Assembly: GCF_000019965.1 (NCBI RefSeq)
Contig: NC_010571.1
Span: 5,155,001-5,219,000, forward strand
DNA: 64,000 nt
Direction: 5' to 3'
Origin: Opitutus terrae PB90-1
GTDB lineage: Bacteria > Verrucomicrobiota > Verrucomicrobiia > Opitutales > Opitutaceae
The notes under the pieces were generated by a model. That model had not been told where the DNA came from and ran no database searches. It saw nothing but the letters and a program-made list of their open reading frames with translations. Position 1 is the stretch's first letter. Each line of letters begins with the position of its first letter. Shown piece after piece: positions 42,110-59,490 of this stretch. The translations under genes and the position numbers were made by a program.

Positions 42110-42226
42110 GCCGATGCTTGCACGCCGCATTACTCGCACGTGGGGGCATCCGCCCCTTAGCTTCCGGTGCCAGCGAGCAGGATCCGCCGAGGCAGGTGTT
42201 CTCTGCCAGCGTAATGCGCTGACCTC

Positions 42227-44422: not shown

Positions 44423-44423
44423 C

Positions 44424-45176
44424 GTGCCCGCCGTCCGCCCTCTCTCCCTTGCACTGCTGCTCGATCGTGGTGACACGCTGGTGGCGTCGCGGGACGCAGA
44501 CGCCCAGCGTTACTGGCGCGAGAACCGGCGCCGGATCGCCACGGCCGTGGCGCGCGCGTCCGAACTCGTGCCGCGCGCGGCCCCGGCGGCCAGTCCGGCG
44601 CGCGTGCTCGACATCGGTCCGGCGCTGGAGGTCGAACTACTCGCGGAGTTTTTGCCGGGCATCGCGCTGGAAACGATGGGTTGGGCCGATCACCGCTATC
44701 AGACCCCCGCGCTGCGCGCCCATCATCCGTTCGACCTGAACGACGCGGCCGATCCCGCCCGCTGGCCGCGCGTGGAGCGCTGCGATCTGATTCTGCTGCT
44801 GGAGGTGATCGAGCACGTGCACATTTCGCCGCTGCATGTCTTCCGGATGCTGCGTTCGTTTCTCCGGCCCGGTGGATATCTGCTGGTATCGACGCCCAAC
44901 GCCGCCTGGCTGCGCAACCGCTGGCTACTCCTCACGGGCCACAATCCCTTCGAGCTAATACGCGAGGATCCGCGGAACCCCGGGCATTTTCGCGAGCTCA
45001 CCCGCAGCGAACTGCGACGGCTGCTCGAGCGCGCGGGGCTCCGGGTCGTCGCGCTCGAACTCGACACGCTTTACGCCTTCTCGTCCGCCTCCGGTCGTCG
45101 ATTCAGCCGGCTGGCGCGACTGCTGCCGCCGGCGTTCCGGCACGACATGCTGTGCACGGTTCAGCGCGTTGAGTAA
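44424..45176 (+). CDS. SAM-dependent methyltransferase
   Basis: About 250 residues from GTG 44424, two bases after the previous stop. VLDIGPALEVELLAEFLPGI (motif I region), CDLILLLEVIEHVHISPL and FLRPGGYLLVSTPNAAWL follow the Methyltransf_23-like order, and the usual glycine-rich loop is degraded (DIGPALEVEL instead of DxGxGxG), so binding of SAM is likely but not certain. The substrate is probably a glycan or lipid-linked sugar. Confidence 0.72.
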   Translation: MPAVRPLSLALLLDRGDTLVASRDADAQRYWRENRRRIATAVARASELVPRAAPAASPARVLDIGPALEVELLAEFLPGIALETMGWADHRYQTPALRAHHPFDLNDAADPARWPRVERCDLILLLEVIEHVHISPLHVFRMLRSFLRPGGYLLVSTPNAAWLRNRWLLLTGHNPFELIREDPRNPGHFRELTRSELRRLLERAGLRVVALELDTLYAFSSASGRRFSRLARLLPPAFRHDMLCTVQRVE

Positions 45177-45205
45177 CGGCCGCGCGCCCCGAACGCTTTC
45201 GCGCG

Positions 45206-46387
45206 ATGCTGCTGCTCGATCTCACGCACACCAGTCACACCCGCGCCCGCACGGGCATCCAGCGGGTGGCGCGTGCGCTCTGGCGGCAGCTCGGTGCGAA
45301 CGCCATGCCGGTCACCCGTGATCCGTTCCTCGGCGGCTGGCGGCCGCTCGAACCTTGGGAACTGGCCAATCTCGCCAGCACGCAGGGGAGCGAACGCCGC
45401 CATGCCCGATGGCCATGGTCGGCGAAATGGCGCAGTCGGTTCCGTCGCATCCTGCGGCGCAACGCCCCACACCTGCTGACGGGGAACTTCACAGGCTCGA
45501 TCGAGCCAGAGCTGTTCAGCCCGGTCGTGGGCCGCGAGCTCCCGCGGGTGTTCGCCCGCGTGCGCGGGCCGCGCGTCGCGCTGTTCCATGACGCGATTTC
45601 TCTCCGGCTGCCGGAGCTGACGCCGCCGGCAATGGTGGCCCGGCTTCCCGGCTACTTGCACGAGCTGCTGCAGTTCGACGGAATCGCCGCGATTTCGGAG
45701 GACTCCCGCGACTCCTTGCTCGGCTATTGGCGCTGGCTCGGAGTTCCGGATACGCCGCCGGTCATCGCGCTGCCGCTGGGTGTCGATCCCTCACCCGCGG
45801 GCGTCGACCGTGCGCCGCCCTCGTCGGCCGCACCGCCGGTGATCCTCTCCGTCGGTACGCTCGAGGGGCGGAAGAACCACCTCGCGCTGTTCGCCGCCTG
45901 CGAGATGCTCTGGGTCGCGGGTGTGGCGTTTACGTTGCGGGTTATCGGCCACGCTGATGCGCCCACGGGCGGCGCCGCGCTCGAGCGGATTCGCGCCCTG
46001 CAAGCGAGCGGCCGGCCTGTACGCTACGACGGTCCCGCCGACGACCCGACCATTGCCGCGGCTTACGATGAATGCGCGTTCACGGTTTATCCCTCGCTGG
46101 CTGAGGGTTTCGGGCTGCCGGTGATCGAAAGCCTCGCCCGCGGCCGGCCGTGCATCTGCCTCGGCCGGGGCGCCCTCGGCGAGATCTCGCGTGCCGGCGG
46201 CTGTGTCCCACTCGACAACGTCGAACCGCCGACGCTCGCCCAGGCGATCCGGCGGTTGCTGGAATCGCCGAGCGAACTCCAAGCGTTGAGCGCCACCGCC
46301 AGCGCACGGCGGTTCAATGACTGGGCAACGTATACCGCTGAGCTCACGGACTGGATCGCCACGCTGCGCCGCCGCAATTCCGTCTAG
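45206..46387 (+). CDS. GT4 glycosyltransferase (copy 1 of a tandem pair)
   Basis: A 393-residue GT-B enzyme. It starts with LLLDLTHTSHTRARTGIQRV, a mark of a GT4 subgroup that lacks an obvious long N-terminal strand. ILSVGTLEGRKNHLALFAAC begins the C-terminal half, and YPSLAEGFGLPVIESLARG is the nucleotide-sugar binding region. The next gene (five bases later) is a clear paralogue, and a third relative lies at 50535-51551, so the group arose by duplication. The donor and acceptor are unknown. Confidence 0.9.
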   Translation: MLLLDLTHTSHTRARTGIQRVARALWRQLGANAMPVTRDPFLGGWRPLEPWELANLASTQGSERRHARWPWSAKWRSRFRRILRRNAPHLLTGNFTGSIEPELFSPVVGRELPRVFARVRGPRVALFHDAISLRLPELTPPAMVARLPGYLHELLQFDGIAAISEDSRDSLLGYWRWLGVPDTPPVIALPLGVDPSPAGVDRAPPSSAAPPVILSVGTLEGRKNHLALFAACEMLWVAGVAFTLRVIGHADAPTGGAALERIRALQASGRPVRYDGPADDPTIAAAYDECAFTVYPSLAEGFGLPVIESLARGRPCICLGRGALGEISRAGGCVPLDNVEPPTLAQAIRRLLESPSELQALSATASARRFNDWATYTAELTDWIATLRRRNSV

Positions 46388-46392
46388 CCGCC

Positions 46393-47559
46393 ATGTTCCT
46401 GCTCGATCTCTCGCACACCAGCCATTCGACCGCGCGGACGGGGATTCAGCGCGTGGCGCGCTCGCTGCACGCGGCACTCGGAGACCAAGCGCAGGCCGTG
46501 TGCTTCGATCCATGGCTCGACGCCTGGCGTGGACTCGAGCGCTGGGAGTTCGCCCGCCTCGACTCCCGGGCCGCGCCCGCCACCCGGCGCTCCGCGCGGT
46601 GGCCCTGGATCGCGCAGTGGCGCGGCCGCTATCGGCGCCGCTTCGGTCGCGGCGCGGCGGCCCTCCCGCCCAGCGAGGGCCTGATCGTGCCGGAGGTGTT
46701 TTCCGCGAACGTGGCCGCGGCGCTGCCGACGCTGTTCGCGCAAACGAGCGGCCCGCGCGTGGCGATGTTTCACGACGCGCTGCCGCTGCGGTTCCCCGAG
46801 TTCACAGCGCCGGGCACGGTCAGCCGGTTTCCATATTACCTGCGCGAACTGCTGGATTTCGACGGGATCGTGGCGGTGTCGGAGGATTCCCGCGCCGCAC
46901 TGCTCGGGTATTGGCGTTGGCTGCAAGTGCCCCAGCCTCCACCCGTCCTCGCGCTGCCACACGGCGTCGAGCCGCCAGCCGCCCGCGTATCCGTCACCCG
47001 GACGCCACGAACGCGTCCGGGGGTGCTCAGCGTGGGCACAATCGAAGGCCGGAAGAACCACCTGGCGCTCCTCGCGGCGTGCGAGCAACTCTGGCGGGCG
47101 GGCGCAGACTTCGAGTTGCAGCTCATCGGTTTCGTGGCGCGTCAGAGCGGCACGGAGGTGCAGCAGCGAATTCGGACCCTGCAGAGCGCCGGCCGCCCGC
47201 TGCGATTCACCGGGCCCGTCAGCGACGAACTGCTTGAAGCGGCCTACGCCGACTGTGATTTCACCGTCTACCCATCGATCGCGGAAGGCTTCGGACTGCC
47301 GGTCGTCGAAAGTCTCGTCCGCGGCCGGCCCTGCGTTTGTTCGGCACACGGAGCGGTCGGCGAGCTCACTCGTGACGGTGGGTGCGTCGGGCTCGACGTG
47401 CTCGACGCCAGCGGCTTGGCGGCGGCGATCGGCCGGTTGCTGGCCGCGCCGGCCGAACTCGAAGCGCTGAGCGCGGCGGCGCGCCAACGCACGTTCAAGA
47501 CCTGGGCCGACTACACCCGCGAGTTGCTGGCATGGATGCGAACCCTGCCTCGCCGTTGA
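46393..47559 (+). CDS. GT4 glycosyltransferase (copy 2 of a tandem pair)
   Basis: A 388-residue paralogue of the preceding gene, sharing the same layout: LDLSHTSHSTARTGIQRVAR at the N-terminus, AMFHDALPLRFPEF, VLSVGTIEGRKNHLALLAAC and YPSIAEGFGLPVVESLVRG. The difference from copy 1 is spread across the whole length, so the duplication is not recent. The reading frame of the next gene begins 28 bases before this one ends, so translation of the two is coupled. Confidence 0.9.
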   Translation: MFLLDLSHTSHSTARTGIQRVARSLHAALGDQAQAVCFDPWLDAWRGLERWEFARLDSRAAPATRRSARWPWIAQWRGRYRRRFGRGAAALPPSEGLIVPEVFSANVAAALPTLFAQTSGPRVAMFHDALPLRFPEFTAPGTVSRFPYYLRELLDFDGIVAVSEDSRAALLGYWRWLQVPQPPPVLALPHGVEPPAARVSVTRTPRTRPGVLSVGTIEGRKNHLALLAACEQLWRAGADFELQLIGFVARQSGTEVQQRIRTLQSAGRPLRFTGPVSDELLEAAYADCDFTVYPSIAEGFGLPVVESLVRGRPCVCSAHGAVGELTRDGGCVGLDVLDASGLAAAIGRLLAAPAELEALSAAARQRTFKTWADYTRELLAWMRTLPRR

Positions 47560-48960: not shown

Positions 48961-50157
48961 ATGGCGTTATCATTTTTCCTGAAAGAAAAGAAAGGCATTC
49001 TGGCGCGCTGCCGCGACGATTACGCGACCAAGATGCGGCTGAAGTACGCGCCCTACTACCACGCGATGGAGTATCAGCAGGGCAGCACGATCAAACTCGA
49101 CGGTCGCGAGATGATCATGCTCTCCAGCAACGACTATCTCGGGCTGTCGTTCCATCCCAAGGTCATTGAAGCCGGCAAAGCGGCGCTGACCAAATGGGGC
49201 ACGAGCACGACTGGAGCCCGACCGGCGAACGGCTCCCGCGCCTATCACGTTCAGCTCGAGGAGAAGCTCGCGGCGTTTCTCGGCCGTGAGGCGTGCCACA
49301 TCCACGCCGCAGGCTATCTCTCGTGCCTGTCGAGCGTCGCGTCGTTTGCGCAGAAGGGCGACGTCGTCTACGCTGACAAAAACATTCACTCCTGCCTCTG
49401 GGACGGCATCCGGCTCTCGATGGCCACCGTCGAGCGGTTCTCCCACAACAGTCCGGACGATCTGCGCAATGTCATCGCCGCGACCCAAAGCGACGCGCCG
49501 AAGATGCTCGTGGTCGAGGGCGTTTATTCGATGGAGGGACACATCGCGCGACTGCCGGAGCTGTTGAACATCGCCGATGAGAACAGCCTCTTCAGCGTCG
49601 TCGACGATGCCCATGGCTTCGGCGTCCTCGGCCGGCAGGGCCGCGGCACGGTCGATCACCACGGCGTCAACGACCGGGTTGACGTGATCTGTGGCAGCAT
49701 GTCGAAATCGCTCGCGAGCACCGGCGGGTTCGTCGCCGCGTCGCGCGAGGTGATCGAATATCTCCGCTCGCATTCGAAGCAGACTATCTTCAGCGCGGCG
49801 ATCAGCCCGGCCCAGGCCGGCTGTGCCGAGGCTTCGCTTGACCTCATGCAGTCGGAGCCGCAGCACTTGGAGCGCCTCTGGGCCAACACCCGCAAGTATC
49901 GCTCTATCCTGAAAGGGCTCGGACTGGACCTCTGGGGCAGCGAAACGCCCGCGGTCCCGATCGTGCTCGGCTCGAAGGAACGCGTTTATCCGTTTTGGCG
50001 CGCGCTCATGGAAAAGGGTGTGTTCACGGTCATGTCGATCGCGCCCGCCGTCCCCGCCGGCAAGGACCTGATTCGCACCGCCGTGTCGGCGATGCACACC
50101 GACGAGCAGTTGGAAAAGATCGGCGAGGCGATGGCCTACGCCATGCGCAAGCTGTGA
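48961..50157 (+). CDS. Alpha-oxoamine synthase (serine palmitoyltransferase-like)
   Basis: A 398-residue PLP enzyme that decarboxylatively joins an amino acid to an acyl thioester. MLSSNDYLGLSFHPKVIEAG, TTGARPANGSRAYHVQLEEK, HSCLWDGIRLSM and VVDDAHGFGVLG (His218 region) fix the family. The PLP lysine is in GSMSKSLASTGGF (Lys249), where SKS plus TGGF looks more like serine palmitoyltransferases than 8-amino-7-oxononanoate synthase (usually LSKALGS). 2-amino-3-ketobutyrate ligase cannot be excluded. Nearby ketosynthase, ACP-dehydratase, reductase and thioesterase genes favour a lipid role. ATG 48961 is preferred over the longer frame. Confidence 0.85.
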   Translation: MALSFFLKEKKGILARCRDDYATKMRLKYAPYYHAMEYQQGSTIKLDGREMIMLSSNDYLGLSFHPKVIEAGKAALTKWGTSTTGARPANGSRAYHVQLEEKLAAFLGREACHIHAAGYLSCLSSVASFAQKGDVVYADKNIHSCLWDGIRLSMATVERFSHNSPDDLRNVIAATQSDAPKMLVVEGVYSMEGHIARLPELLNIADENSLFSVVDDAHGFGVLGRQGRGTVDHHGVNDRVDVICGSMSKSLASTGGFVAASREVIEYLRSHSKQTIFSAAISPAQAGCAEASLDLMQSEPQHLERLWANTRKYRSILKGLGLDLWGSETPAVPIVLGSKERVYPFWRALMEKGVFTVMSIAPAVPAGKDLIRTAVSAMHTDEQLEKIGEAMAYAMRKL

Positions 50158-50172
50158 GCTGTTCGAGGCTCC

Positions 50173-50246
50173 TGTAGCCGAGGTTTCTGACCTCGGTGGG
50201 TTTTCTCACAGCGGCAAAACACCGGGCTCAACGAGCCCGGCTACAC
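50173..50246. repeat. Palindrome pair of the GTAGCCGAGG...CCCGGCTAC type
   Basis: TGTAGCCGAGGTTTCTGACC (50173-50192) then CTCGGTGGG, and CACCGGGCTCAACGAGCCCG (50220-50239) then GCTACA. The outer ends GTAGCC and GGCTAC complement each other, giving a two-hairpin element. It is related to the copies at 52991, 59493 and 62691, where the inner stem differs but the frame is the same. Confidence 0.6.
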
Positions 50247-50283
50247 CGCTTCTCGAAAGCGAGCGCAACCCAGCCGCCACCGG

Positions 50284-50469
50284 TCACGGTTTGATCGAAT
50301 CCAAGATCTCGCGGAAATCCTTGCCGGCTTTGCTTTCGGGCGCCGGCACGATCGCCTGGCGGTTCAACTCCAAACACTGGTCCTGCAGTTTCTTCTGTTC
50401 CAGCGAACGCACCGAATCTTGAGGCACAGGGGGTGCCGCGGGCGGTTGGATTGGTCGAATGTTTTCCAT
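50284..50469 (-). CDS. Small conserved-looking protein, unknown
   Basis: Sixty-one residues from ATG 50469, preceded by GGAGGA (50479-50474) at ideal spacing, one of the few strong ribosome sites here. The product is hydrophilic: a Pro-rich N-terminus (RPIQPPAAPPVPQD) and a helical C-terminus (SKAGKDFREILDSIKP). A longer in-frame start at 50535 would overlap the stop of the glycosyltransferase gene upstream (TAATG) and give 83 residues, but the strong ribosome site favours 50469. It is probably in the same unit as the glycosyltransferases at 50535-52759. Function not recognised. Confidence 0.55.
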   Translation of the reverse strand: MENIRPIQPPAAPPVPQDSVRSLEQKKLQDQCLELNRQAIVPAPESKAGKDFREILDSIKP

Positions 50470-50473
50470 CGTC

Positions 50474-50479
50474 TCCTCC
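50474..50479 (-). promoter_or_regulatory. Strong Shine-Dalgarno GGAGGA
   Basis: GGAGGA on the minus strand, four bases before the ATG at 50469. It decides the start of the 61-residue protein and contrasts with most genes in this window, which lack a clear ribosome binding site. Confidence 0.7.
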
Positions 50480-50534
50480 GTGAGAACGTCGTTGCCGCGA
50501 TGTTCTTGGGACGAAACGCCGCGACCGCGAGCCA

Positions 50535-51551
50535 TTATTTCAATCCGCCGCGCAATCGCTCGGCGGCGGCGCGCCAGGTCGGCAGCGGCCGCTGCCGTGC
50601 CTCGGTCGCGAGTTGCAGGCACCGCGCGTCGTCCGTGAGGATCATCCGCAGCGCGTCCACCCACGCGATCGGATCGCCCGTGGGCACCAGCCAGCAGCCG
50701 CCGCCGTCGGCGTTCTCCCGCAGCACCGGCAGATCGCTGCACACGCACGGCACGCCCTGCCAGAGCGATTCCAGCAACGGCAATCCGCAACCTTCCGCCA
50801 TCGTCGGAAAAACGGTGGCGCGCACCGTGGCGAACAGTTGCGACAGCGCTGCGTCCGACGCCGCCGCATGATGGTGCACGGCGCGCCCGGCCTGGCGCAG
50901 CGCCTTGACGCGCGCGACGATCGGCGCGCCGAAATGAGGATTCACGCGGCCGACCACATGGAGGTCGAAATCGAGCCCCTCGTGCCACAACGCCTCGGCG
51001 GCGTTGAGCAGGAGCAGCTGGTTTTTGCGCGGTTCCAGGATGCCCACGCAGAGCAGCGCCCGTGCTCGCGGAGCGGGCCACGGCGCCACCACGCGCGGCG
51101 TGCCGGCGAGATCCGCGCCCAAGGGCAGCACTTCCACCGGTGGCTTTCGCTCGAGCCCCAGCCAGCGCCAGTAATCACACAACTCGTCGCGGCTCCCCTG
51201 CGAGATCGCCCACACGCGGTCGAACCGCGCCAGCAATTTCAGGTAATGCGGATGCCGCGCCACGCTCTGCGGCCAGGTGATGTGCGGATGTTTCAGCGGG
51301 ATCGCATCCGCAAAAATCGCGGCCGTCCGACACCGCCGCGCCTCCAAAAACTCCGTGAACCCCGGCCGCTCGCTTTCGGAAAACAGCTCGCTGGTGACGA
51401 ACCAGTCATCCGCCGTGGCCCGCGCACTGCACTCCTGCCAGGAACCGGCCGAGGCCGCCTCGCCGAGTTCGTCTCGCAGCCGCGCGCTCAGCCGCGCCAA
51501 TCCTGAACGGTGACGCACGGCTGCGGTTTTTGTGACGTCGAAGTAGATCAT
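50535..51551 (-). CDS. GT4 glycosyltransferase (third relative of the tandem pair)
   Basis: A 338-residue GT-B enzyme starting MIYFDVTKTAAVRHRSGLAR, with ALLCVGILEPRKNQLLLLNA and FPTMAEGCGLPLLESLWQG as donor-binding landmarks. It is related to the enzymes at 45206-47559 but shorter and on the other strand. The upstream glycosyltransferase overlaps its start by four bases (ATGA). Acceptor unknown; in this setting it may act on the proposed lipid. Confidence 0.88.
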   Translation of the reverse strand: MIYFDVTKTAAVRHRSGLARLSARLRDELGEAASAGSWQECSARATADDWFVTSELFSESERPGFTEFLEARRCRTAAIFADAIPLKHPHITWPQSVARHPHYLKLLARFDRVWAISQGSRDELCDYWRWLGLERKPPVEVLPLGADLAGTPRVVAPWPAPRARALLCVGILEPRKNQLLLLNAAEALWHEGLDFDLHVVGRVNPHFGAPIVARVKALRQAGRAVHHHAAASDAALSQLFATVRATVFPTMAEGCGLPLLESLWQGVPCVCSDLPVLRENADGGGCWLVPTGDPIAWVDALRMILTDDARCLQLATEARQRPLPTWRAAAERLRGGLK

Positions 51552-52759
51552 GTTCCCAGCACGGCGCGGAACTGAGCGAGCAGCCGACCGGCGTTGTCGT
51601 GCGCGTTGAAATTCTCCTCCACCCAGCGTCGGGCTGCGTGGCGCAGCCGCTCCGCCAGCGCATCATCGGTGCGGAGCTGTCGCAGCGCCGCCACCCAATC
51701 CTCGGTGGCCTCGGCCGCAGCGACGAGGCCCGTGACGCCGTTGGTGATGGCTTCCGTCGTGGCCGCCGCGGGCGAAGTCACCACCAGCGTGCCGATCGCC
51801 ATCGCTTCGGGGATGACGTTGGGCAGTCCGTCGCGGTCGCCACTGGGCGCGATCACGCCCGTGTGCAGGAGTACGTCGGCCCACGCGAGTTGCGTCCAGA
51901 CCTCGTGCTGCGGCAGGTGACCGGTGAACGTCACCTGGGCCGCGATGCCGAGGCGTCCGGCCTGTTGCTCCAACTCAGCGCGCAGCGGTCCTTCGCCGAC
52001 GACGTGCGCCTCGAACGCGATCCCGGCCGAGTGCAGCGCCGCGTAGATCTGCAGTTGGTGCGCGAGCCCCTTTTTCTCCACCAGCCGCGCCACGCACACG
52101 AGGTGCAGCGGATCACGATGCGCACGCAGCGATTTCAGCTCGGGGAATCGATCCAGTCCGCGCCGGATGCAATGGATCCGCTCGGGCGGCACGCCGCGCG
52201 CGACGAGCGCCTGCCGCGCCATCTCGGTGGAGGTGTGAATCAACGCCGCCTCCGCGAGCTTTTCGCGCAACCACCAGTCGCCCCCATGCTCGTAAATATC
52301 GTAGGCGTGCGCCGCCGCGGTGAACCGGTGTCCATCGAGCCGCCACAGCAGCCACGCCGCCGTCGCGGGCGCACCGCCCCACGTCGCATGGACCAGCGCC
52401 GGTGGGCGGGACCGAAACTCGCGGGCGAAGAGACAGGCGAAGCCCGCCCCGAGCATGTTCTCCCAAAAGTTCAGCCACGACGGCGCGCGGCGCGTGCATA
52501 GCCCGCGCAGCAGCTGCCGCAGCACTTCGGGCCGCCGCCACGACTCATACGGAATCCACCAGAGCAACGTGAACAGCCGCCATTTGTTGAACCGCGTGAC
52601 CGGCAGCCCGCGAAACGAATCGCCCCCACCCCACAGCGAATACAGCTGCAACGTCACGCCATGCTCGCGCATGGCGATGATCTCGCGCTGGAGGAACGTC
52701 TCCGTCGATTTGGGAAACGTGGTGAAGAGATAGGCGATGACGGGCGCGGAAGCGGACAA
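51548..52759 (-). CDS. GT4 glycosyltransferase
   Basis: A 403-residue GT-B enzyme of the exopolysaccharide type: IAYLFTTFPKSTETFLQREI at the N-terminus, CVARLVEKKGLAHQLQIYAA at the start of the donor domain and GLPNVIPEAMAIGTLVVTSP in the UDP-sugar site. It is the first gene of a minus-strand run that continues through 50535 and 50284. A 341-base spacer with palindromic repeats separates it from the MGDG-synthase-like gene. Confidence 0.9.
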   Translation of the reverse strand: MSASAPVIAYLFTTFPKSTETFLQREIIAMREHGVTLQLYSLWGGGDSFRGLPVTRFNKWRLFTLLWWIPYESWRRPEVLRQLLRGLCTRRAPSWLNFWENMLGAGFACLFAREFRSRPPALVHATWGGAPATAAWLLWRLDGHRFTAAAHAYDIYEHGGDWWLREKLAEAALIHTSTEMARQALVARGVPPERIHCIRRGLDRFPELKSLRAHRDPLHLVCVARLVEKKGLAHQLQIYAALHSAGIAFEAHVVGEGPLRAELEQQAGRLGIAAQVTFTGHLPQHEVWTQLAWADVLLHTGVIAPSGDRDGLPNVIPEAMAIGTLVVTSPAAATTEAITNGVTGLVAAAEATEDWVAALRQLRTDDALAERLRHAARRWVEENFNAHDNAGRLLAQFRAVLGT

Positions 52760-52990
52760 GATGCCGGCGAATTAAGGGCCTCGTCCGCGCGCGGCCAAGC
52801 GGATTGTCGCGCGAGCTATGGTGGGGCGGATCTCCGACTGACGTCCGAGCACGGACTCACAGGTCGATCTACGGGCCGCTCAAAGGCCAACGCCAAACTC
52901 TAGGCCAAGGCGGAGAGTTGGCGGCCACGTCGACAGCGGCGGCCTGCAGCGCGCTATCGCTCGAGGCTGTTGTGCGTTTTGGTCCGGCCT
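52760..52990. other. Noncoding spacer without recognised features
   Basis: This stretch between the GT4 gene start (52759) and the palindromes at 52991 shows no convincing reading frame on either strand, no RNA gene and no clear promoter. The minus-strand operon of 50284-52759 must have its promoter here if it is not read from further upstream. Confidence 0.5.
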
Positions 52991-53067
52991 TGGTAGGGCG
53001 CTCACTCCGTGAGCGCCGCGACCATCCAGCGACTTCCCCGGCGGGCAGCGGAATGCCCGCCCCACCT
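52991..53067. repeat. Palindrome pair of the GTAGGGCG...GCCC type
   Basis: TGGTAGGGCGCTCACTCCGT (52991-53010) with GAGCGCCGCG closing the stem, and GGCGGGCAGCGGAATGCCCG (53041-53060) then CCCCACC. Both are perfect or near-perfect hairpins without a T-run. The inner stem sequence differs from the other copies (50173, 59493, 62691), with the pairing kept. It fills the end of the spacer, just downstream of the MGDG-synthase-like gene. Confidence 0.65.
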
Positions 53068-53100
53068 CAGAACCGCTGATGGAAGGTGCCTGACAACCCG

Positions 53101-54330
53101 CTAAGCGGTCTTTCCGCCGTTTCCATTCCCGTTCGGCGGCGGGAATGCGCGGCGCTTCAATCTCACCTGCGCCACCTCGTTGGCCAGGCCGACAAGTTCG
53201 TCGATCACGACCGTGGGATCCTCCTCGTAGCGCAGCCGCAGGAAGTTGTCGCGCGCCACCAGGTAGGCTCCGGGCTTGTCGGTCCATTCATCGATGATCG
53301 CGGCGAAGTCCTCGCCGCTCTCCACCTTGCGGCAACCGGCGCCGTTGCGGAAAAATTTCCAGGTCAGCTGCTCCTGCGGCATGATCCCGCCGAACGCATT
53401 GAACACAATCGGGCAGCGGAAATGCAGCGCCTTCGCGCACGTGGTGGTGCCGCCGCGCGTGACAATCACATCGCTGACCTGCATCAACAGGTGCACGACA
53501 TCCGAGTAGCCTTCGATGTAGCAGGAAAACTCCGGGTGCTCCGTGCGCCACTGCACGAGGTCATTGTAGACTTGCTTGTTGCGCCCGCAGATCAGGATCG
53601 CCTGCACGCGATCGGCGTGCCGCAGCAAGCCGGCGAGCAGTTCGAAGTGGTTGTTGGCGCCGTTGCTGCCGGTCGCCAGGAACACCGTGAACCGGTCGGC
53701 ATCGAGTCCGAGCTTCCGCGTCAGGAACGAGTGCCGCTCGCCCGGGCTCAGCACTTCGAGGTAGGCCCGAGGATGCATCATCGATCCCCGCACGCGGGCG
53801 CGTTCCTCCGGGAGGCCGCACTTCACCGCGTAATCGCGGGCGGTGCCGGTCCGCGAAAGATAGAGATCGACGGTCGGTTCGATCCAGTTGCGCGAGTAGC
53901 CCCACCCGCCGGAGAACTCGCCGCAATACGTGGCACAGCGGACGTTCGAGGCGCCGAGGATCTGCCGCGCGAGCTGGAAATAGCCGCGGTTGAGGCAGTC
54001 GTGCACGCTGAAGACCAGATGCGGCCGGTAGCGGTGCAACACCTCGACGTAGTAGCGATGGCCAAACACCACGTTGCGTCGGTTGATGACGCTCAGCAGT
54101 TCCACGATCGCGTAGAACAGCTTGTGCACCCACGGCGCACTCCGCTGGATCCGGTTGTAGAGCCGCACGCCGGTGCGGTTCACGAATGAGGATTTCTCGA
54201 GCATCTGCTCGATCCGCACCTCGACATCGTGCCGGTAGAGCTGAAAGCACCACTCGGCGAACGCCTCGGCGCGGGCATCGTGGCCACCGCCGGTGCTGGA
54301 GGTCAGCACCAATATGCGCAGCTTGCCCAC
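53101..54330 (-). CDS. MGDG-synthase/MurG-like glycosyltransferase (GT28)
   Basis: A 409-residue GT-B enzyme from GTG 54330 (the SDR gene stops at 54332). ILVLTSSTGGGHDARAEAF (residues 6-24) is the MGDG-synthase/MurG glycine-rich loop. VHLLMQVSDVIVTRGGTTTC and FNAFGGIMPQEQLTWKFF lie in the donor domain. Such enzymes add a sugar to diacylglycerol or another lipid acceptor at the membrane. Grouping with the ketosynthase, dehydratase and reductase genes makes a lipid acceptor likely here; the specific lipid is unknown. Confidence 0.85.
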   Translation of the reverse strand: MGKLRILVLTSSTGGGHDARAEAFAEWCFQLYRHDVEVRIEQMLEKSSFVNRTGVRLYNRIQRSAPWVHKLFYAIVELLSVINRRNVVFGHRYYVEVLHRYRPHLVFSVHDCLNRGYFQLARQILGASNVRCATYCGEFSGGWGYSRNWIEPTVDLYLSRTGTARDYAVKCGLPEERARVRGSMMHPRAYLEVLSPGERHSFLTRKLGLDADRFTVFLATGSNGANNHFELLAGLLRHADRVQAILICGRNKQVYNDLVQWRTEHPEFSCYIEGYSDVVHLLMQVSDVIVTRGGTTTCAKALHFRCPIVFNAFGGIMPQEQLTWKFFRNGAGCRKVESGEDFAAIIDEWTDKPGAYLVARDNFLRLRYEEDPTVVIDELVGLANEVAQVRLKRRAFPPPNGNGNGGKTA

Positions 54331-54331
54331 G

Positions 54332-55204
54332 TCAGATGCCGAAATAGCGGCACGCCAGCGCACGGCGCAATCCTGCCGGCAGCCAGGCCGCACCCAGCGG
54401 CGCCAGCCTGGCCTGGAAAAATGACCCTAGCCGCACGGTCCCACTGCGCCGCCGGAGCAGCGCGCGCCGCAAGCCCGCGGCCGCGGCGGCCGGTGGCGGC
54501 GCGGCGCGCAGATTCGCATCGAGCGCCGTCCAACTGCGATCGAGCATGGGCTCGCGCGGCGCCGAGGAGGCGGAGGCGGTTTGCATGGATTGGTTGAAGT
54601 CGGTCCGGAAGTCGCCGGGACGGAGGTCGATGACCGTGATCCCGCTGCCCTTGGTTTCAATCACTAAACTCTCGCTGAACGCGGCGAGCCCCGCCTTCGC
54701 GACATTGTAGCCGCTCATGAACGGCAGGGGAAACTCCACCGCGAGCGAGGCGACGTTGACCAGACAGCCGCGGTTCGCCTGCCGCATCGCGGCCAAGGCC
54801 ACGTGCGCCAGTTGCATGCTCGCTCCGAGCATCGCCCGCACCTGCGCTTCCCACACGGCGAACTCCGTGGTTTCGAACCGGCCGAACACGCCGTAACCCG
54901 CGTTGTTGATCACCAGATCGAATGCGCCGCCCGCCGATTGCTGGGCGCGCTGAAAGGCACCCACGGCCGCGGTGGTGTCCGCCAGATCGAGCACGACCGG
55001 CGTGAACTGCGCCGGGTGCGTCGACGCCATCTCGGCCAGCCGACCGGTGTCCCGCGCCGTGCCCCAGACGCGCACGCCCTCCGCCAGCAGCATCTCGGTA
55101 AACGCGCGGCCGAGGCCCGCGCTCGCGCCCGTGACAAAGGCGGTGCGGTAAAGATCGGCGAGACGTTGGCTGGGCACGGGGAGCAGGCACGCAAGCCGGT
55201 TCAC
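54332..55204 (-). CDS. Short-chain dehydrogenase/reductase
   Basis: A 290-residue classical SDR from GTG 55204: TGASAGLG at 25-32, NNAG at 100-103 and the catalytic Ser153, Tyr166 and Lys170 (YNVAK). It probably reduces a keto group with NADPH. In a cluster with a serine-palmitoyltransferase-like enzyme it could be a 3-ketosphinganine reductase; with the ketosynthase it could be a ketoreductase of chain elongation. The C-terminal 60 residues are Ala/Arg/Leu-rich and hydrophobic and may bind membrane. Confidence 0.85.
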   Translation of the reverse strand: MNRLACLLPVPSQRLADLYRTAFVTGASAGLGRAFTEMLLAEGVRVWGTARDTGRLAEMASTHPAQFTPVVLDLADTTAAVGAFQRAQQSAGGAFDLVINNAGYGVFGRFETTEFAVWEAQVRAMLGASMQLAHVALAAMRQANRGCLVNVASLAVEFPLPFMSGYNVAKAGLAAFSESLVIETKGSGITVIDLRPGDFRTDFNQSMQTASASSAPREPMLDRSWTALDANLRAAPPPAAAAAGLRRALLRRRSGTVRLGSFFQARLAPLGAAWLPAGLRRALACRYFGI

Positions 55205-55229
55205 CGCGAGGCGGCGGCCGGCCGGCGCG

Positions 55230-56492
55230 TCACGAAGCGATCACATTTTTCAACACGATGGCCACATTGGCGCCGCCGAATCCGCTGCTGTTCTTGACCA
55301 CAATCCGTGGCCGGGTGGATTCGGTCTTCAGCGGGATGCGCAGGTCCTTGCACGCAGGATCGAGTTGCTGGATGTGGGCCGAACCGGGAATGAAACCTTC
55401 GCGCATCGCGAGCGCGCAAAAAGCCGTCTCCATCACACCCGCGAGCGACAGACCATGTCCAGTCAGCGCCTTCGTGCTGCTCACCGCCGGCCGGGCCTCC
55501 TGGAACACGGTACGCAGGGCCCGCGCCTCGGAGACGTCGCCAATCAGCGTGGAGGTGGCGTGGGCGTTGACGTAGTCGACCTGCTCGGGCGCCACCTGGC
55601 TCGCGCGCAGGGCCCGCATCATCGCGGCCGCGGAGCCGTCGCCTTCGGGATGCGAGATCGCCACGTTGTAACCATCGGACGCCTGCCCCCAGCCGAGCAC
55701 TTCCGCGTAGGGCGTAACCCCACGCCGCTGCACTTCCTCCTCCGTCTCCAGCACCATGACCGTGGAGCCGCCGGTCCCGACGAAGCCATCGCGACCGACA
55801 TCGAACGGCCGCGAGGCGAGGTTCGGATCGGACTGCAGCGACAGCGTGCGCATGCCGGCGAACGGCAGGATGGCGTCCGTGTTGCCGTCCTCGCCGCCGA
55901 CGACGAACATGCGTTTCTGCCGGCCGAGCGTCAGATCGTCGAACGCGTAACCGATCGCATGCGCCGACGAGGCGCAGGCGGACGAGAAGCCGCATGAAGA
56001 GCCCGCGATCTTGAAGGCCGCGACGAGGTTGAAATTAAGTGTACCCGCAATCGACGCGACGATCCCGAACGGCGAGCAGCGCATCACGCCGAGCTTTACC
56101 AGCCGCTCATGATGGTAATTGGTCAGGAACGGCGAACCGCCCGAGGCCGCGTAGAGTCCCGTCTCTGGATTCGCGATGTCCGACTCGGCCAATTTCGCAT
56201 CCTCGATCGCCTGGAGCATGGCACAGTGGGCGAACAACCCGTTGGGCGCCATCGTGCGCAGCAGCTCGCGCTTGATTTTGTAGCGCGTCGGAAACGTCCA
56301 ATCCTCCGGGTCGGTCGAATCGGCACCAAACTCCTTGATCGTGCCGACGACCTTGCACGGGATCTCCGGTTTCTGGAACGGTGGGTAAAGTTCGAAACCG
56401 TGCCGTAGTTCACGCAGGCTGCGCGCAACGGAGGGAGCATCGTTGCCGATGCTGGTCACGAAACCCAGCCCAGTGATGAAGACGCGAGGCAT
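55230..56492 (-). CDS. Beta-ketoacyl-ACP synthase (FabF/FabB type)
   Basis: A 420-residue ketosynthase with the full catalytic set: Cys173 in SACASSAH, His311 in NAHATST, Lys341 in STKALTGHG and His346. Thus it should be an active condensing enzyme rather than a chain-length factor. It elongates acyl-ACP chains in the cytoplasm. The N-terminal 60 residues diverge from housekeeping FabF, and the gene is not next to fabD/fabG/acpP, so a dedicated pathway is likely. Start ATG 56492; the reductase gene follows after 25 bases. Confidence 0.9.
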   Translation of the reverse strand: MPRVFITGLGFVTSIGNDAPSVARSLRELRHGFELYPPFQKPEIPCKVVGTIKEFGADSTDPEDWTFPTRYKIKRELLRTMAPNGLFAHCAMLQAIEDAKLAESDIANPETGLYAASGGSPFLTNYHHERLVKLGVMRCSPFGIVASIAGTLNFNLVAAFKIAGSSCGFSSACASSAHAIGYAFDDLTLGRQKRMFVVGGEDGNTDAILPFAGMRTLSLQSDPNLASRPFDVGRDGFVGTGGSTVMVLETEEEVQRRGVTPYAEVLGWGQASDGYNVAISHPEGDGSAAAMMRALRASQVAPEQVDYVNAHATSTLIGDVSEARALRTVFQEARPAVSSTKALTGHGLSLAGVMETAFCALAMREGFIPGSAHIQQLDPACKDLRIPLKTESTRPRIVVKNSSGFGGANVAIVLKNVIAS

Positions 56493-56606
56493 AGACGAGA
56501 AGCAGGCAGGACTTGGCGCCGGGAGCAAGGTTCCGCAGCGCGCGGTGCCGTTGGACTGAAGGCACTTCCATTCTCGCGGTCAACGCGAGAGCACGCGTAC
56601 AGGCGC

Positions 56607-56731
56607 CACGTGGCATGGGCGTCCCGCCCATGTCAGAAAGTGAGAGTCCTTCGGGGATGGCTGTCGAACGAGCGCGCATGCCGCACGCGGCTCGGTTTTC
56701 CGCAAATCCACGGGCGAGACGCCCGTGCACC
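56607..56731. repeat. Palindromic repeats between ketosynthase and ACP-dehydratase genes
   Basis: TGGCATGGGCGTCCCGCCCA (56611-56630) is followed by TGTCAGAAAG, the same outer flank as at 37155 read on the other strand. A second hairpin CCACGGGCGAGACGCCCGTG (56708-56727) lies about 80 bases on. Both are REP-like and not followed by a T-run. Confidence 0.75.
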
Positions 56732-56745
56732 GGAAGCACCGCAGC

Positions 56746-57732
56746 TCAGGCGCCCAACGCCGCTTGTAGCGGCGGGGTGTCACCGCTCTCCGCACTCCGC
56801 GGTTTTTCGCTCGGCGTCGCAGCGACCGCGGGTTCGGGCTCCGGTTTCACTAGCGCATCCGCAAATCCAAACGTAAGCGTAATCTCCTCCGCGATCGCCG
56901 CTTTCTCCTGTCCAACGCGAATCGCACCTTCGAACGTCGCCAGCGGCATCTTCATCCGCTTGGGCTTGATCGACAGCGTGAGGATGTCGCCCGGCTTGCA
57001 CATGCGATGTGCGCGCACGCCTTCACAACCCGTGAAGAAAATCGTGTTGGGACTGACGACCTTCCCCGGCTCGAGATTCAGCCCTTCCAGCAGGAACAGC
57101 ACCGCGAGTTGCCCAAGAGCTTCGAGCATGATCGAAGCCGGCATCACCGGGTTATCCTTGAAATGACCTTGGAGGAAAAACTCCTGCCCCGTGATCTTGT
57201 ACTTGCCGTTCGCGCCGGTGGAGCTGACGGAGGCTTCGTTCAGGAACAGGAACGGAGGCTGGATCGGCATCACCGCGCCGATGTGCTCGATCGGCAAAAA
57301 CTTGGTCGGTTTCGGCAACGGCAGATCGCGAATCTTGCAATCGATGAAAGTCTTCACGTCACCAACCGTCCGCAGGTTCCGCAGCTCGTCGTTGTTGATC
57401 GAAAGCTGGAGCACATCCTCCACAAGGATGACGATCTCCATCATCGTCAGTGAATCGATGCCGAGATCCTCGATCAGCCGCAGATCGTCGTCTGCATCCT
57501 TGAGCTTGGTGCGCAGGTCCGGCTCGACGAAACGCTCGATCACGCCGATGACCACGGCGGGCACGTGTTCCGGATTGCCCGTCTTGCGGAATTGCACCGC
57601 CGCCTCGAAGGTCGAAGGCGAGCATCGTTTCAAAGCCTCGCGCAAAGCGCTTTCATCCTCGGGGGAAAACGGTTTCGCCAAAACTGGGAACGGCTTGTTG
57701 CTCGCCTGACCTTGAGGGAGTGCTTCGGGCAT
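56746..57732 (-). CDS. Acyl carrier protein fused to 3-hydroxyacyl-ACP dehydratase (FabZ-like)
   Basis: A 328-residue fusion. Residues 55-132 form an ACP domain: GIDSLTMMEIV holds Ser94 as phosphopantetheine site. From about 145 a hotdog dehydratase domain of the FabA/FabZ type begins; GHFKDNPVMPASIM (His190) and MLEALGQLA (Glu204) give the catalytic pair. The Pro of the usual MPG is followed by Ala rather than Gly (MPAS), a small departure. The first 50 residues are a helical segment of unknown use, and the last 35 are Pro/Ala-rich. A fused carrier and dehydratase would keep the growing chain on one polypeptide. Next to the ketosynthase gene on the same strand. Confidence 0.88.
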   Translation of the reverse strand: MPEALPQGQASNKPFPVLAKPFSPEDESALREALKRCSPSTFEAAVQFRKTGNPEHVPAVVIGVIERFVEPDLRTKLKDADDDLRLIEDLGIDSLTMMEIVILVEDVLQLSINNDELRNLRTVGDVKTFIDCKIRDLPLPKPTKFLPIEHIGAVMPIQPPFLFLNEASVSSTGANGKYKITGQEFFLQGHFKDNPVMPASIMLEALGQLAVLFLLEGLNLEPGKVVSPNTIFFTGCEGVRAHRMCKPGDILTLSIKPKRMKMPLATFEGAIRVGQEKAAIAEEITLTFGFADALVKPEPEPAVAATPSEKPRSAESGDTPPLQAALGA

Positions 57733-57937
57733 CGGATTAAGGGAACGAAGATTTGGTCCGGGACGCTGGAATGTAAACCCCTAATTGGCACCAGCGCGGG
57801 AGCGACTCGGGACGGCAGGAACGTTAAACGACATAAGATGGTCTGGTTCTGAGCGCCTGGGTGATTGCCAGTTGACCGGCGTAAACCTATGGCGTTCCCT
57901 TCTTCAACTTGCTGCCTGTTGCTGCCTCTTCCTGCGC

Positions 57938-59092
57938 ATGAGTGATTCGGCCACCACCGCCGCCCCTTCCGTTTTCCTGATCACGCACGAGTTCTACCCT
58001 ACCCGCGGCGGCATCGCCACGTTCGCAGAAGAAATCGCCAAGGCCACCGCGGCGTTGGGTTACGACCTCGAAGTTTGGGCCCAGGCTGCCGGCAAGGAAG
58101 CCGCCGAAAAGCGCTGGCCGTTCCGGTTGCGCCGGCTGCCGATCAAGGGCTCCCACGACTGGGGCTGCCAGCTCCTGCTGGGCTGCCAGCTGATTCGCGA
58201 ACGCCGCCGGCTGCGGTACGCGGTGGTCTACTTGCCGGAACCCGGTCCGATGCTCACGATGATGCTGCTCCAGTTTTTTCGGACCTTCCGGCCGGAGCGA
58301 CTCGTCCTGACCTTCCACGGTTCGGAGATCCTCAAGTTCGCCCACAGCCCGTGGCGCCGCGGGCTCGCCCGCCGGTTGATTCGCCACGCCAACCGGGTCA
58401 CGACGCTGACCAACTACACGCAGGAGCTCCTGCTCACACATTTTCCCGAAGCGGCCAACAAGATCATGCTCACGCCCGGGGCGCTGCGCACCGATTTCGC
58501 GGTGGTGCCCACCTCGCACCAGCGACAGGGCGAAAAACTCGTGGTGCTCACCGTCGGCCGGCTGCATCCGCGCAAAGGTCAGCTGCACACGCTCAAGGCG
58601 CTGCAAATGCTGTCGCCGCACCTCCGCTCGCGGCTCGAATACTGGATCGTCGCCGGCCAGTCGCGCAGCCGCTACGAAACGCTGGTGCGCGATACGGCGC
58701 GCCGCTGCTCGGACCTCGCGGTCCGGTTCCTCGGCAACCTGCCGGACGACGAGCTCGCGGGCGTTTACGACCGGGCTGACATCTTCGCGATGACCAGCAT
58801 CAACTACGGGCTTAGCGTGGAAGGTTTCGGCCTGGTTTATCTCGAGGCCGCGGCTCACGGACTGCCGGTCGTGGCGCACGACGTGGGTGGTGTCTCCGAA
58901 GCCGTCGTGCACGGCGTCACCGGCCTGCTCGTGCCGCCGCATCGTCCGGCCCAACTCGCCGCAGCGTTCGAGCAGCTCATTTATGATCCGGCGCTGCGCC
59001 AGCAACTCGGCGCAGCAGGTCGCGAATGGGCGACGCGCAACTGCTGGGAGCAATCCGCGGAAGCGCTGTTCCGGCCGCTCGTTTCCTCATGA
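57938..59092 (+). CDS. GT4 glycosyltransferase
   Basis: A 384-residue enzyme from ATG 57938 (the longer open frame upstream crosses the divergent spacer). FLITHEFYPTRGGIATFAEE is a typical GT4 N-terminal segment; LTVGRLHPRKGQLHTLKALQ and TSINYGLSVEGFGLVYLEAA (E-x7-E region) follow. Its end overlaps the thioesterase start (ATGA), tying it to acyl metabolism. It is divergent from the ACP-dehydratase gene across 205 bases, a likely control point for the lipid cluster. Confidence 0.9.
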   Translation: MSDSATTAAPSVFLITHEFYPTRGGIATFAEEIAKATAALGYDLEVWAQAAGKEAAEKRWPFRLRRLPIKGSHDWGCQLLLGCQLIRERRRLRYAVVYLPEPGPMLTMMLLQFFRTFRPERLVLTFHGSEILKFAHSPWRRGLARRLIRHANRVTTLTNYTQELLLTHFPEAANKIMLTPGALRTDFAVVPTSHQRQGEKLVVLTVGRLHPRKGQLHTLKALQMLSPHLRSRLEYWIVAGQSRSRYETLVRDTARRCSDLAVRFLGNLPDDELAGVYDRADIFAMTSINYGLSVEGFGLVYLEAAAHGLPVVAHDVGGVSEAVVHGVTGLLVPPHRPAQLAAAFEQLIYDPALRQQLGAAGREWATRNCWEQSAEALFRPLVSS

Positions 59093-59490
59093 TTCAAACC
59101 CGCGCCACCGTCACGGTCCGCTACGCCGAGACCGACATGATGGGCATTGTCTACCACGCGAACTATCTGCCTTGGTTCGAGGTCGCCCGCACGCAGTTGC
59201 TCCGCGAGCAGGGTTTCCCGTACCGGCAGCTTGAGGCCGATGGCTATCGCATCCCGGTGCTGGAAGTCGCGGCGAAGTTTCGTCGGCCGGCCCTTTACGA
59301 TGATACGTTGACCATCGTGGCCACGATCCGCGAAAAGCCGACCCTGCGGGTCCGGATCGACTACGAAGTGTTTCGTGACGAGGAATTGCTCGCGACGGGC
59401 AACAGTGCGCACGCTTTCTGCGATCTCAACGGCCGCCCCACCCGGCCCCCCGCGGCGTTCGTCGCCCGGATGAACGAGATCTTCGGATAG
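59089..59490 (+). CDS. 4-hydroxybenzoyl-CoA thioesterase-family acyl thioesterase (YbgC-like)
   Basis: A 133-residue hotdog thioesterase. RYAETDMMGIVYHANYLPWF near residues 11-30 contains the catalytic Asp16 of the 4HBT/YbgC group. It hydrolyses acyl-CoA or acyl-ACP thioesters. Overlap with the glycosyltransferase gene (ATGA at 59089-59092) puts it in the same unit as the nearby fatty acyl genes. It could release a chain from the ACP or edit it. Confidence 0.9.
   Translation: MIQTRATVTVRYAETDMMGIVYHANYLPWFEVARTQLLREQGFPYRQLEADGYRIPVLEVAAKFRRPALYDDTLTIVATIREKPTLRVRIDYEVFRDEELLATGNSAHAFCDLNGRPTRPPAAFVARMNEIFG

Follow-up and report, generated by a model that had tools for sequence, protein, structure and literature searches.

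In the canonical bacterial ceramide pathway (E. coli B, Caulobacter), a serine palmitoyltransferase (SPT) acts with AcpR, AasR, an epimerase (CerR) and a bacterial ceramide synthase (bCerS, YghO). The passages available on the Caulobacter SPT give a precedent for preference for a special chain bound to an acyl carrier protein (acyl-ACP) (PMC9386255), and those on Bacteroides one for a ketosphinganine reductase of the short-chain dehydrogenase/reductase (SDR) type (PMC9278070). Closest to the present case is PfSgaABC of Pseudomonas fluorescens MYb115 (Nat Commun 2025, PMC12134224), where, according to the passages on this system, the polyketide synthase (PKS) SgaA, the SPT SgaB and the SDR SgaC make sphinganines, the SPT having been shown to prefer serine and the SDR step being proposed. 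Here we describe a gene cluster of Opitutus terrae PB90-1 that lies in a window of 64,000 nucleotides (bases 5155001-5219000 of the single-contig genome of 5,957,605 bp, G000 in our genome set). It combines an SPT-clade oxoamine synthase with a beta-ketoacyl synthase (KS), an ACP fused to a dehydratase (ACP-DH), an SDR, a thioesterase (TE) and glycosyltransferases (GTs). We interpret it as a KS-fed SPT in a variant with discrete enzymes, predicted from sequence to make a sphingoid lipid.

Like PfSgaABC, the Opitutus cluster would feed an SPT-type oxoamine synthase from a KS-based chain builder, with an SDR proposed for the ketone; the passages on PfSgaABC name no ceramide synthase of its host bacterium (PMC12134224). 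Unlike SgaA, which those passages present as one iterative type I PKS, the Opitutus KS, SDR and ACP-DH are separate proteins resembling type II fatty acid synthesis (FAS-II), a FabZ-type dehydratase forms one protein with the ACP, and the set has linked glycosyltransferases. The likeness is one of architecture as described. Burkholderia and Eleftheria plasmid loci that possibly hold SgaB relatives have no annotated PKS in the stretch examined. In the open-licence literature, judged by titles and the first lines of abstracts, we found no SPT linked to a KS as discrete enzymes, the Sga paper (PMC12134224) being the nearest. The preliminary description of this DNA had taken a linked chain-building module to be foreign to known SPT clusters; as far as the available text of that paper goes, this was overtaken by PfSgaAB, in print since 2025.

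With the canonical ceramide pathway the cluster shares an SPT-clade enzyme and a dedicated ACP. It differs in that neither bCerS query, E. coli (B) YghO or the Rubrobacter acyltransferase, matches anything in the Opitutus terrae genome at E<=0.001; the preliminary description had likewise recognised no known ceramide synthase gene. The best match of the genome to the CerR/epimerase is weak (58.7 bits, 35% over ~200 aa), and no acyl-ACP synthetase (AasR) is found among the ten cluster proteins scanned, the rest of the genome not having been searched for it. The canonical pathway loads its chain, whereas the Opitutus cluster would build the chain in place.

The reading frames of the cluster were confirmed at or very near the coordinates first proposed, and the enzymes named there are present, with their domains and with intact, conserved catalytic motifs:

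48961..50157, + strand: SPT-clade alpha-oxoamine synthase, a pyridoxal phosphate (PLP) enzyme (Pfam/NCBIfam, nearest structure, trees, approximately unbiased (AU) tests, motifs)
50535..51551, - strand: GT4-family glycosyltransferase, GT4a (Pfam)
51548..52759, - strand: GT4-family glycosyltransferase, GT4b (Pfam)
53101..54321, - strand: lipid glycosyltransferase resembling GT28 and monogalactosyldiacylglycerol (MGDG) synthase, GT28 below (Glyco_tran_28_C over cut-off; PRK13609)
54332..55204, - strand: SDR, candidate 3-ketosphinganine reductase or ketoacyl-ACP reductase (KdsR model, homology to an SDR of a bCerS cluster)
55230..56492, - strand: beta-ketoacyl synthase, KS (both KS domains; Cys-His-His and Lys conserved)
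56746..57732, - strand: acyl carrier protein fused to a FabZ-type dehydratase, ACP-DH (domains, motifs)
57932..59092, + strand: GT4-family glycosyltransferase, GT4c (Pfam)
59089..59490, + strand: hotdog thioesterase of the YbgC/FadM type, TE (TIGR00051 over cut-off)

This left-to-right order is not that of one operon: the oxoamine synthase, GT4c and TE are encoded on the strand opposite to GT4a, GT4b, GT28, SDR, KS and ACP-DH. GT28, SDR and KS are spaced by 10 and 25 bp, GT4a and GT4b overlap, and the gene order is found again in many genomes. Accordingly, the grouping is more than chance.

The oxoamine synthase (48961-50157) is an Aminotran_1_2 protein and a member of the SPT clade. Its best NCBIfam model is the SPT of CFB type (SerpalmtaseCFB, 370.8 bits, cut-off 640), followed by SPT BetaP (338.2, cut-off 500), TIGR01825 (BioF/Kbl-related, 328.9), BioF (321.8) and SPT AlphaP (262.4, cut-off 670), TIGR01825 and BioF likewise being below cut-off; its profile position is intermediate. 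Because the SPT models are equivalogs named for other lineages, SPT activity is put forward here as likely rather than as an established assignment. Among solved structures, the sequence match is best with the SPT 8guh/3a2b (309.5 bits vs 263.8 for the next molecule), which we take to come from Sphingobacterium multivorum, the next molecule presumably being a BioF/KBL enzyme.

Trees place the enzyme more firmly. SPT orthologues were defined as matches above 420 bits, the next group beginning at 318.9 bits. In a tree of 64 rows, computed without eleven duplicate rows, the 30 orthologues make one group (100/100) lying among SPTs; its rows L182 and L186, named bCerS-linked, carry bCerS on another contig. 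A 27-row tree, whose rows were picked after the larger one had been seen, holds 8 of the 30 orthologues, omits the fused polypeptides and some of the long rows, and retains one long branch (E. coli BioF, 2.06). There, one branch (100/97) unites the orthologues with SPTs, apart from other oxoamine synthases, and AU tests reject grouping with KBL (p 0.0019) and with BioF (p 0.0060). This bears out the early description of the enzyme as SPT-like rather than BioF or KBL. The trees also speak against an ALAS identity, the AU tests having covered BioF and KBL. The row nearest to the orthologues is the Rubrobacter SPT (91/90, not decisive), from a gene set of SPT, GNAT-type acyltransferase and epimerase. 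The two next-nearest oxoamine synthases of the Opitutus terrae genome (220 and 196 bits) group with KBL.

Catalytic residues are common to the Opitutus enzyme and the Sphingobacterium SPT. The Lys in SKS, the His in NIHS, DDAH and the Arg in LIRT are conserved in at least 90% of the 30 orthologues, and the PLP lysine, the stacking histidine, the Asp/His pair and the carboxylate-binding Asn and Arg, as we presume these roles to be, are kept in the orthologues and in 8guh. AlphaFold models were poor, with a mean predicted local distance difference test score (pLDDT) of 51 for ACP-DH and 47 for the SPT.

The chain-building enzymes are similarly intact. ACP-DH carries a PP-binding domain (79-129) and a FabA/FabZ-like domain (161-279) in one frame. 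Conserved at 90% or more over the aligned relatives are the Cys in ACASS, the His in HAT and the Lys and His in TKALTGHG of the KS; the ACP serine in DSL and the FabZ-type dehydratase His in GHF and Glu in EALGQ of ACP-DH; and TGASxGxG and YxxxK of the SDR. No enoyl reductase is found among the ten cluster proteins. Elsewhere in the genome there are ten more matches to Ketoacyl-synt_C, of which six fall in large frames inside a 43-kb stretch, and two further FabA-like domains besides ACP-DH; the cluster KS and dehydratase are therefore additional chain builders.

We then asked how the SPT is distributed relative to this module. In the class, 34 genomes were counted as having ACP-DH: 32 with a match above 180 bits, G117 with a split gene and G061 with a partial one. 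Of the 141 genomes of the class, 30 carry an SPT orthologue, and all 30 also carry ACP-DH. Families f1, f9, f11 and f13 are mixed for the two, and within each of them presence and absence match. ACP-DH without SPT is found in G108, G117, G034 and G045. In the order (223 genomes, E<=1e-100, a threshold that a diverged KS would escape, with a KS search that also matches paralogues, several genomes having 2-3), SPT is present in 87 genomes, KS in 115 and both in 81. Thus the SPT nearly always occurs with the KS, which is often found alone. Fisher tests give p ~1e-26 for SPT with ACP-DH in the class and ~1e-25 for SPT with KS in the order, kinship not being corrected for. Co-occurrence of this kind speaks against chance neighbours. 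Across the phylum (337 genomes), ACP-DH matches at E<=1e-25 are confined to 38 genomes, all in the window's class; on plasmids, none of 41 matching records covers 80% of the query, FabZ-like partials being among the matches listed.

Association is broader than close linkage, which the preliminary description had required to be conserved and which is kept only in part. The SPT-KS distance is below 15 kb in 21 of the 87 genomes (2.0-8.1 kb), some of them outside the window's family. Of 162 relatives, the 80 best were kept as named loci, labelled as Opitutaceae, Opitutus, Cephaloticoccus, Opitutae/Opitutia or simply Verrucomicrobia. In 51 of these the KS side extends for 9.5 kb or more; there, KS and GT28 are each found in 50, GT4a and GT4b each in 39, SDR in 34 and SPT in 29. 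On the other side, GT4c and TE are present in all 72 loci with at least 3 kb. Compact sets of ACP-DH, KS, GT4b and SPT reappear in other families (L277, L279-L283). GT4b, found in 19 of 41 clustered loci, ranks top among the window's GTs, and among 32 compared loci TE occurs only in L149-L157, all of the window's family.

Related clusters offer a further comparison. In four Opitutaceae (G042, G064, G075, G132), a single frame of 1319-1366 aa (L228:3637-7734, L227:7336-11292, L230:3645-7616, L231:8945-12991) adjoins a bCerS homologue and an SDR. The frame of G064 (L228), the sole one domain-scanned, comprises KS, ACP, dehydratase and oxoamine synthase; the other three are homologous over more than half their length, with equally spaced KS and SPT matches. 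The set of enzymes is that of the window, SDR included. The fusion differs in being a type I polypeptide, in having its oxoamine synthase outside the window's SPT clade (64-row tree), and in its neighbours: bCerS, an inositol-phosphate synthase and a PAP2-type gene (scanned in G064), with a CDP-alcohol transferase in 3 of the 4 genomes (scanned in G132). The fusion loci possibly represent a type I route to inositol-phosphate ceramides. Since the fused oxoamine synthase falls outside the clade, the same enzymes have seemingly been combined more than once. Exporter-like genes, named by eye, also lie near the fusion frames. Among the 30 genomes with an SPT orthologue, a bCerS match occurs only in G042, G064 and G132, each time beside the fusion, and in none of the other 27.

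A second type of cluster is found in family f14 (L225:4465-13956 in G009; relatives L226, L229). L225, whose gene set spans 16 kb and which is the sole f14 locus domain-scanned, contains an oxoamine synthase, bCerS, Lipid_DES/FA_desaturase, FA_hydroxylase and CDP-alcohol transferase domains and a KdsR-like SDR, and nothing in it matches the KS or ACP-DH of the window. It looks like a cluster for desaturated, hydroxylated ceramide phospholipids. Its SDR fits the KdsR model over its full length (162.5 bits, second best, below the cut-off of 400), and its best match in the Opitutus terrae genome is the window SDR (163.7 bits vs 55.5 for the next). L226 and L229 likewise have, close to their oxoamine synthase, an SDR that is 36-37% identical to the window SDR. 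The window SDR itself scores 103.8 bits against the KdsR model, ranking 8th. Because the L225 SDR is KdsR-like and the window SDR is its clear best match, we favour the latter as a ketosphinganine reductase, although it may also act on ketoacyl-ACP.

On this basis we propose, with moderate confidence, that a chain-building module is coupled to the SPT to yield a sphingoid lipid that is probably glycosylated and is not N-acylated by bCerS. The KS would add a two-carbon unit to an acyl chain carried by the ACP part of ACP-DH, and a ketoacyl reductase (the cluster SDR or a housekeeping FabG) would process the chain together with the fused FabZ-type dehydratase. Next, the SPT-clade enzyme would condense the ACP-bound chain with an amino acid, L-serine being the likeliest, in a decarboxylative reaction that releases the chain from its carrier. 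The result would be a 3-keto sphingoid base, whose 3-keto group the SDR probably reduces. At least one cluster glycosyltransferase would probably add a sugar, GT28 and GT4b being the first candidates. Both the order of these steps and the use of serine are predictions. The existence of the KS-ACP-DH-oxoamine synthase fusion beside bCerS, and the kinship of the SDR to one of a bCerS cluster, favour a sphingoid pathway.

The lack of any match to the known bacterial ceramide synthase in the genome makes a classical ceramide an improbable product, and we set the canonical ceramide pathway aside. For the same reason the product would be a non-N-acylated sphingoid glycolipid, or one N-acylated by an unrelated enzyme. 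The glycosphingolipid-like product first suggested for this locus is thereby narrowed, its amino acid and sugar acceptor being predicted from the enzymes. The MGDG-synthase-like label of GT28 is weak: Glyco_tran_28_C is above its cut-off, MGDG_synth (22.7 bits) is just below its 25, and the nearest NCBIfam model is the diglucosyl-diacylglycerol synthase PRK13609 (78 bits, cut-off 500).

Several observations weigh against this proposal. The oxoamine synthase is under the cut-off of every NCBIfam model that it matched. Residues such as Cys112, Trp147, His194 and Ser246 are private to its clade, which differs in this, as in its linked KS/ACP-DH, from the Sphingobacterium SPT. The KS occurs without SPT in 34 of 115 genomes of the order, and 6 of 87 SPT genomes, some of them decent assemblies, have no KS match that passes the chosen threshold. 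Of the 87, 10 carry SPT and KS on one contig but separated by over 15 kb, and 50 carry them on separate contigs, many of these assemblies being fragmented. The SDR is absent from 17 of the 51 loci with enough flank. Beside the KS in four loci of family f114 there is a match to the dehydratase half of the fusion only, and one listed f114 locus (G427) has a 162-aa dehydratase and a KS followed by a 3-deoxy-D-manno-octulosonic acid (KDO) transferase, so that the KS/dehydratase module seems able to serve something else. Finally, a literature search for Opitutus with sphingolipid returned, by title, nothing on Opitutus lipids, and papers on Opitutia offered nothing useful on lipids either.

Much of this would also fit a module of KS, ACP-DH and GT28 that belongs to a separate acyl, glycolipid or lipopolysaccharide-related pathway, with the SPT as a frequent neighbour using housekeeping acyl thioesters. 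The genomes with a KS alone, the KDO transferase locus and the wide separation of SPT and KS in 60 of 87 genomes (many of them fragmented assemblies) point that way, as do G108 and G490, which keep ACP-DH, KS, GT28 and GT4b together with no SPT match at E<=1e-100. The dependence, however, is one-way: the SPT comes with ACP-DH in 30 of 30 cases in the class and with the KS in 81 of 87 in the order, and relatives carry the enzymes fused in one polypeptide. We therefore regard a separate pathway as rather unlikely.

The glycosyltransferases raise another question, namely whether the locus is a mosaic of surface-polysaccharide genes with an embedded SPT module, whose GTs do not act on the SPT product. 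Further GT-like frames do lie upstream in the window (40472-47559), and in relatives the SPT has GT4a/GTb/GTc-like genes on its flanks. A mosaic is nevertheless unlikely in our view, given that the GT28/MGDG-like enzyme belongs to a type that glycosylates lipids and lies close to the KS in 50 of 51 loci.

Alternatively, the same module could use another amino acid (alanine, glycine, cysteate or other) and yield a 1-deoxysphingoid or capnine-like aminolipid. At twenty positions the clade of the 30 orthologues has a residue that is fixed (29 or 30 of 30 sequences) but seldom seen (<15%) in other aligned oxoamine synthases, some of these positions lying near PLP-site residues in sequence, and the stem of the clade measures 0.75 changes per column (64-row tree); the accessible part of one report holds alanine possible for Spt (PMC11334938). 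Yet the nearest solved relative is an SPT, and the cysteate acyltransferase 28eh scores far lower, at 196.6 bits only. Another amino acid is thus quite unlikely, and the SPT-clade enzyme is predicted to condense acyl-ACP probably with serine. An aryl-polyene, flexirubin or alkylresorcinol-like pigment cluster, which a KS, ACP, dehydratase, SDR and thioesterase resemble in outline, is very improbable: aryl polyene clusters feature a chain-length factor and an aryl-activating enzyme, whereas the ten proteins scanned include a single KS and no chain-length factor, aryl-activating ligase or ammonia lyase, and an SPT-clade enzyme is not known as a part of such pigment clusters.

Within the KS-fed SPT pathway, we also put forward, as a tentative and rather improbable addition, that the dehydratase makes a Delta4 double bond: a trans-2-enoyl chain on the fused ACP would be released with serine as a 3-keto-4-ene base. 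Sphingosine-type bases would then arise in chain building, with no need for an oxygen-dependent sphingolipid desaturase. In keeping with this, both SPT systems that carry a KS have a dehydratase, and L225 has Lipid_DES instead of KS and ACP-DH. If true, it would be a source of Delta4 bases without oxygen, and would suit an anaerobe such as Opitutus terrae, as we take this species to be.

If the proposed pathway is right, the idea of a PKS-fed SPT (2025) extends from type I megasynthases to discrete FAS-II-like enzymes. It suggests how a genome with an SPT and without a known ceramide synthase could still yield sphingoid lipids; gene surveys that demand bCerS may overlook such producers. Many relatives share the gene set and may make sphingolipid-like sugar lipids by an unusual bacterial route. 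For Verrucomicrobiota, the sole relevant report that we found in the literature is one whose accessible part describes Spt-like genes in 22 metagenome-assembled genomes (PMC11334938).

A number of further loci were seen in the course of this comparison. On a Roseomonas mucosa plasmid (L223), the gene immediately before that of an SPT-clade enzyme encodes an ACP, and genes for a diacylglycerol kinase and a CDP-alcohol transferase are close by. In distant families (L166, L178, L193, L196, L276, L280, L282), HlyD-, FtsX/MacB-, ABC- and TolC-like exporter genes, named by eye, are found near the SPT; such sets bring DevBCA-TolC glycolipid export to mind. The ACP half of the fusion alone, at 53-58% identity, occurs at G137:C7:93555, G015:C17:119999, G085:C1:1351875 and G350:C1:2950340, the fusion being elsewhere in these genomes; no KS lies beside the three of these four matches that were inspected.

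In the Opitutus terrae genome itself, the 61-aa frame at 50287-50469 has no Pfam or NCBIfam family match and appears in no locus row among the relatives' loci listed, and repeat searches gave nothing of note. The six Ketoacyl-synt_C matches within 43 kb (G000:C1:2460775-2503297, frames of 1929-2894 aa) form a large modular PKS-type cluster, and a second KS and a FabA-like domain, weakly similar to the cluster pair, lie ~8 kb apart in L260 (G000:C1:4290000-4309900). Upstream of the cluster, the frames at 40472-47559 are GT4-like glycosyltransferases and methyltransferases; two of them, at 45206 and 46393, share one homology group with GT4a, and their kin flank the SPT in relatives.

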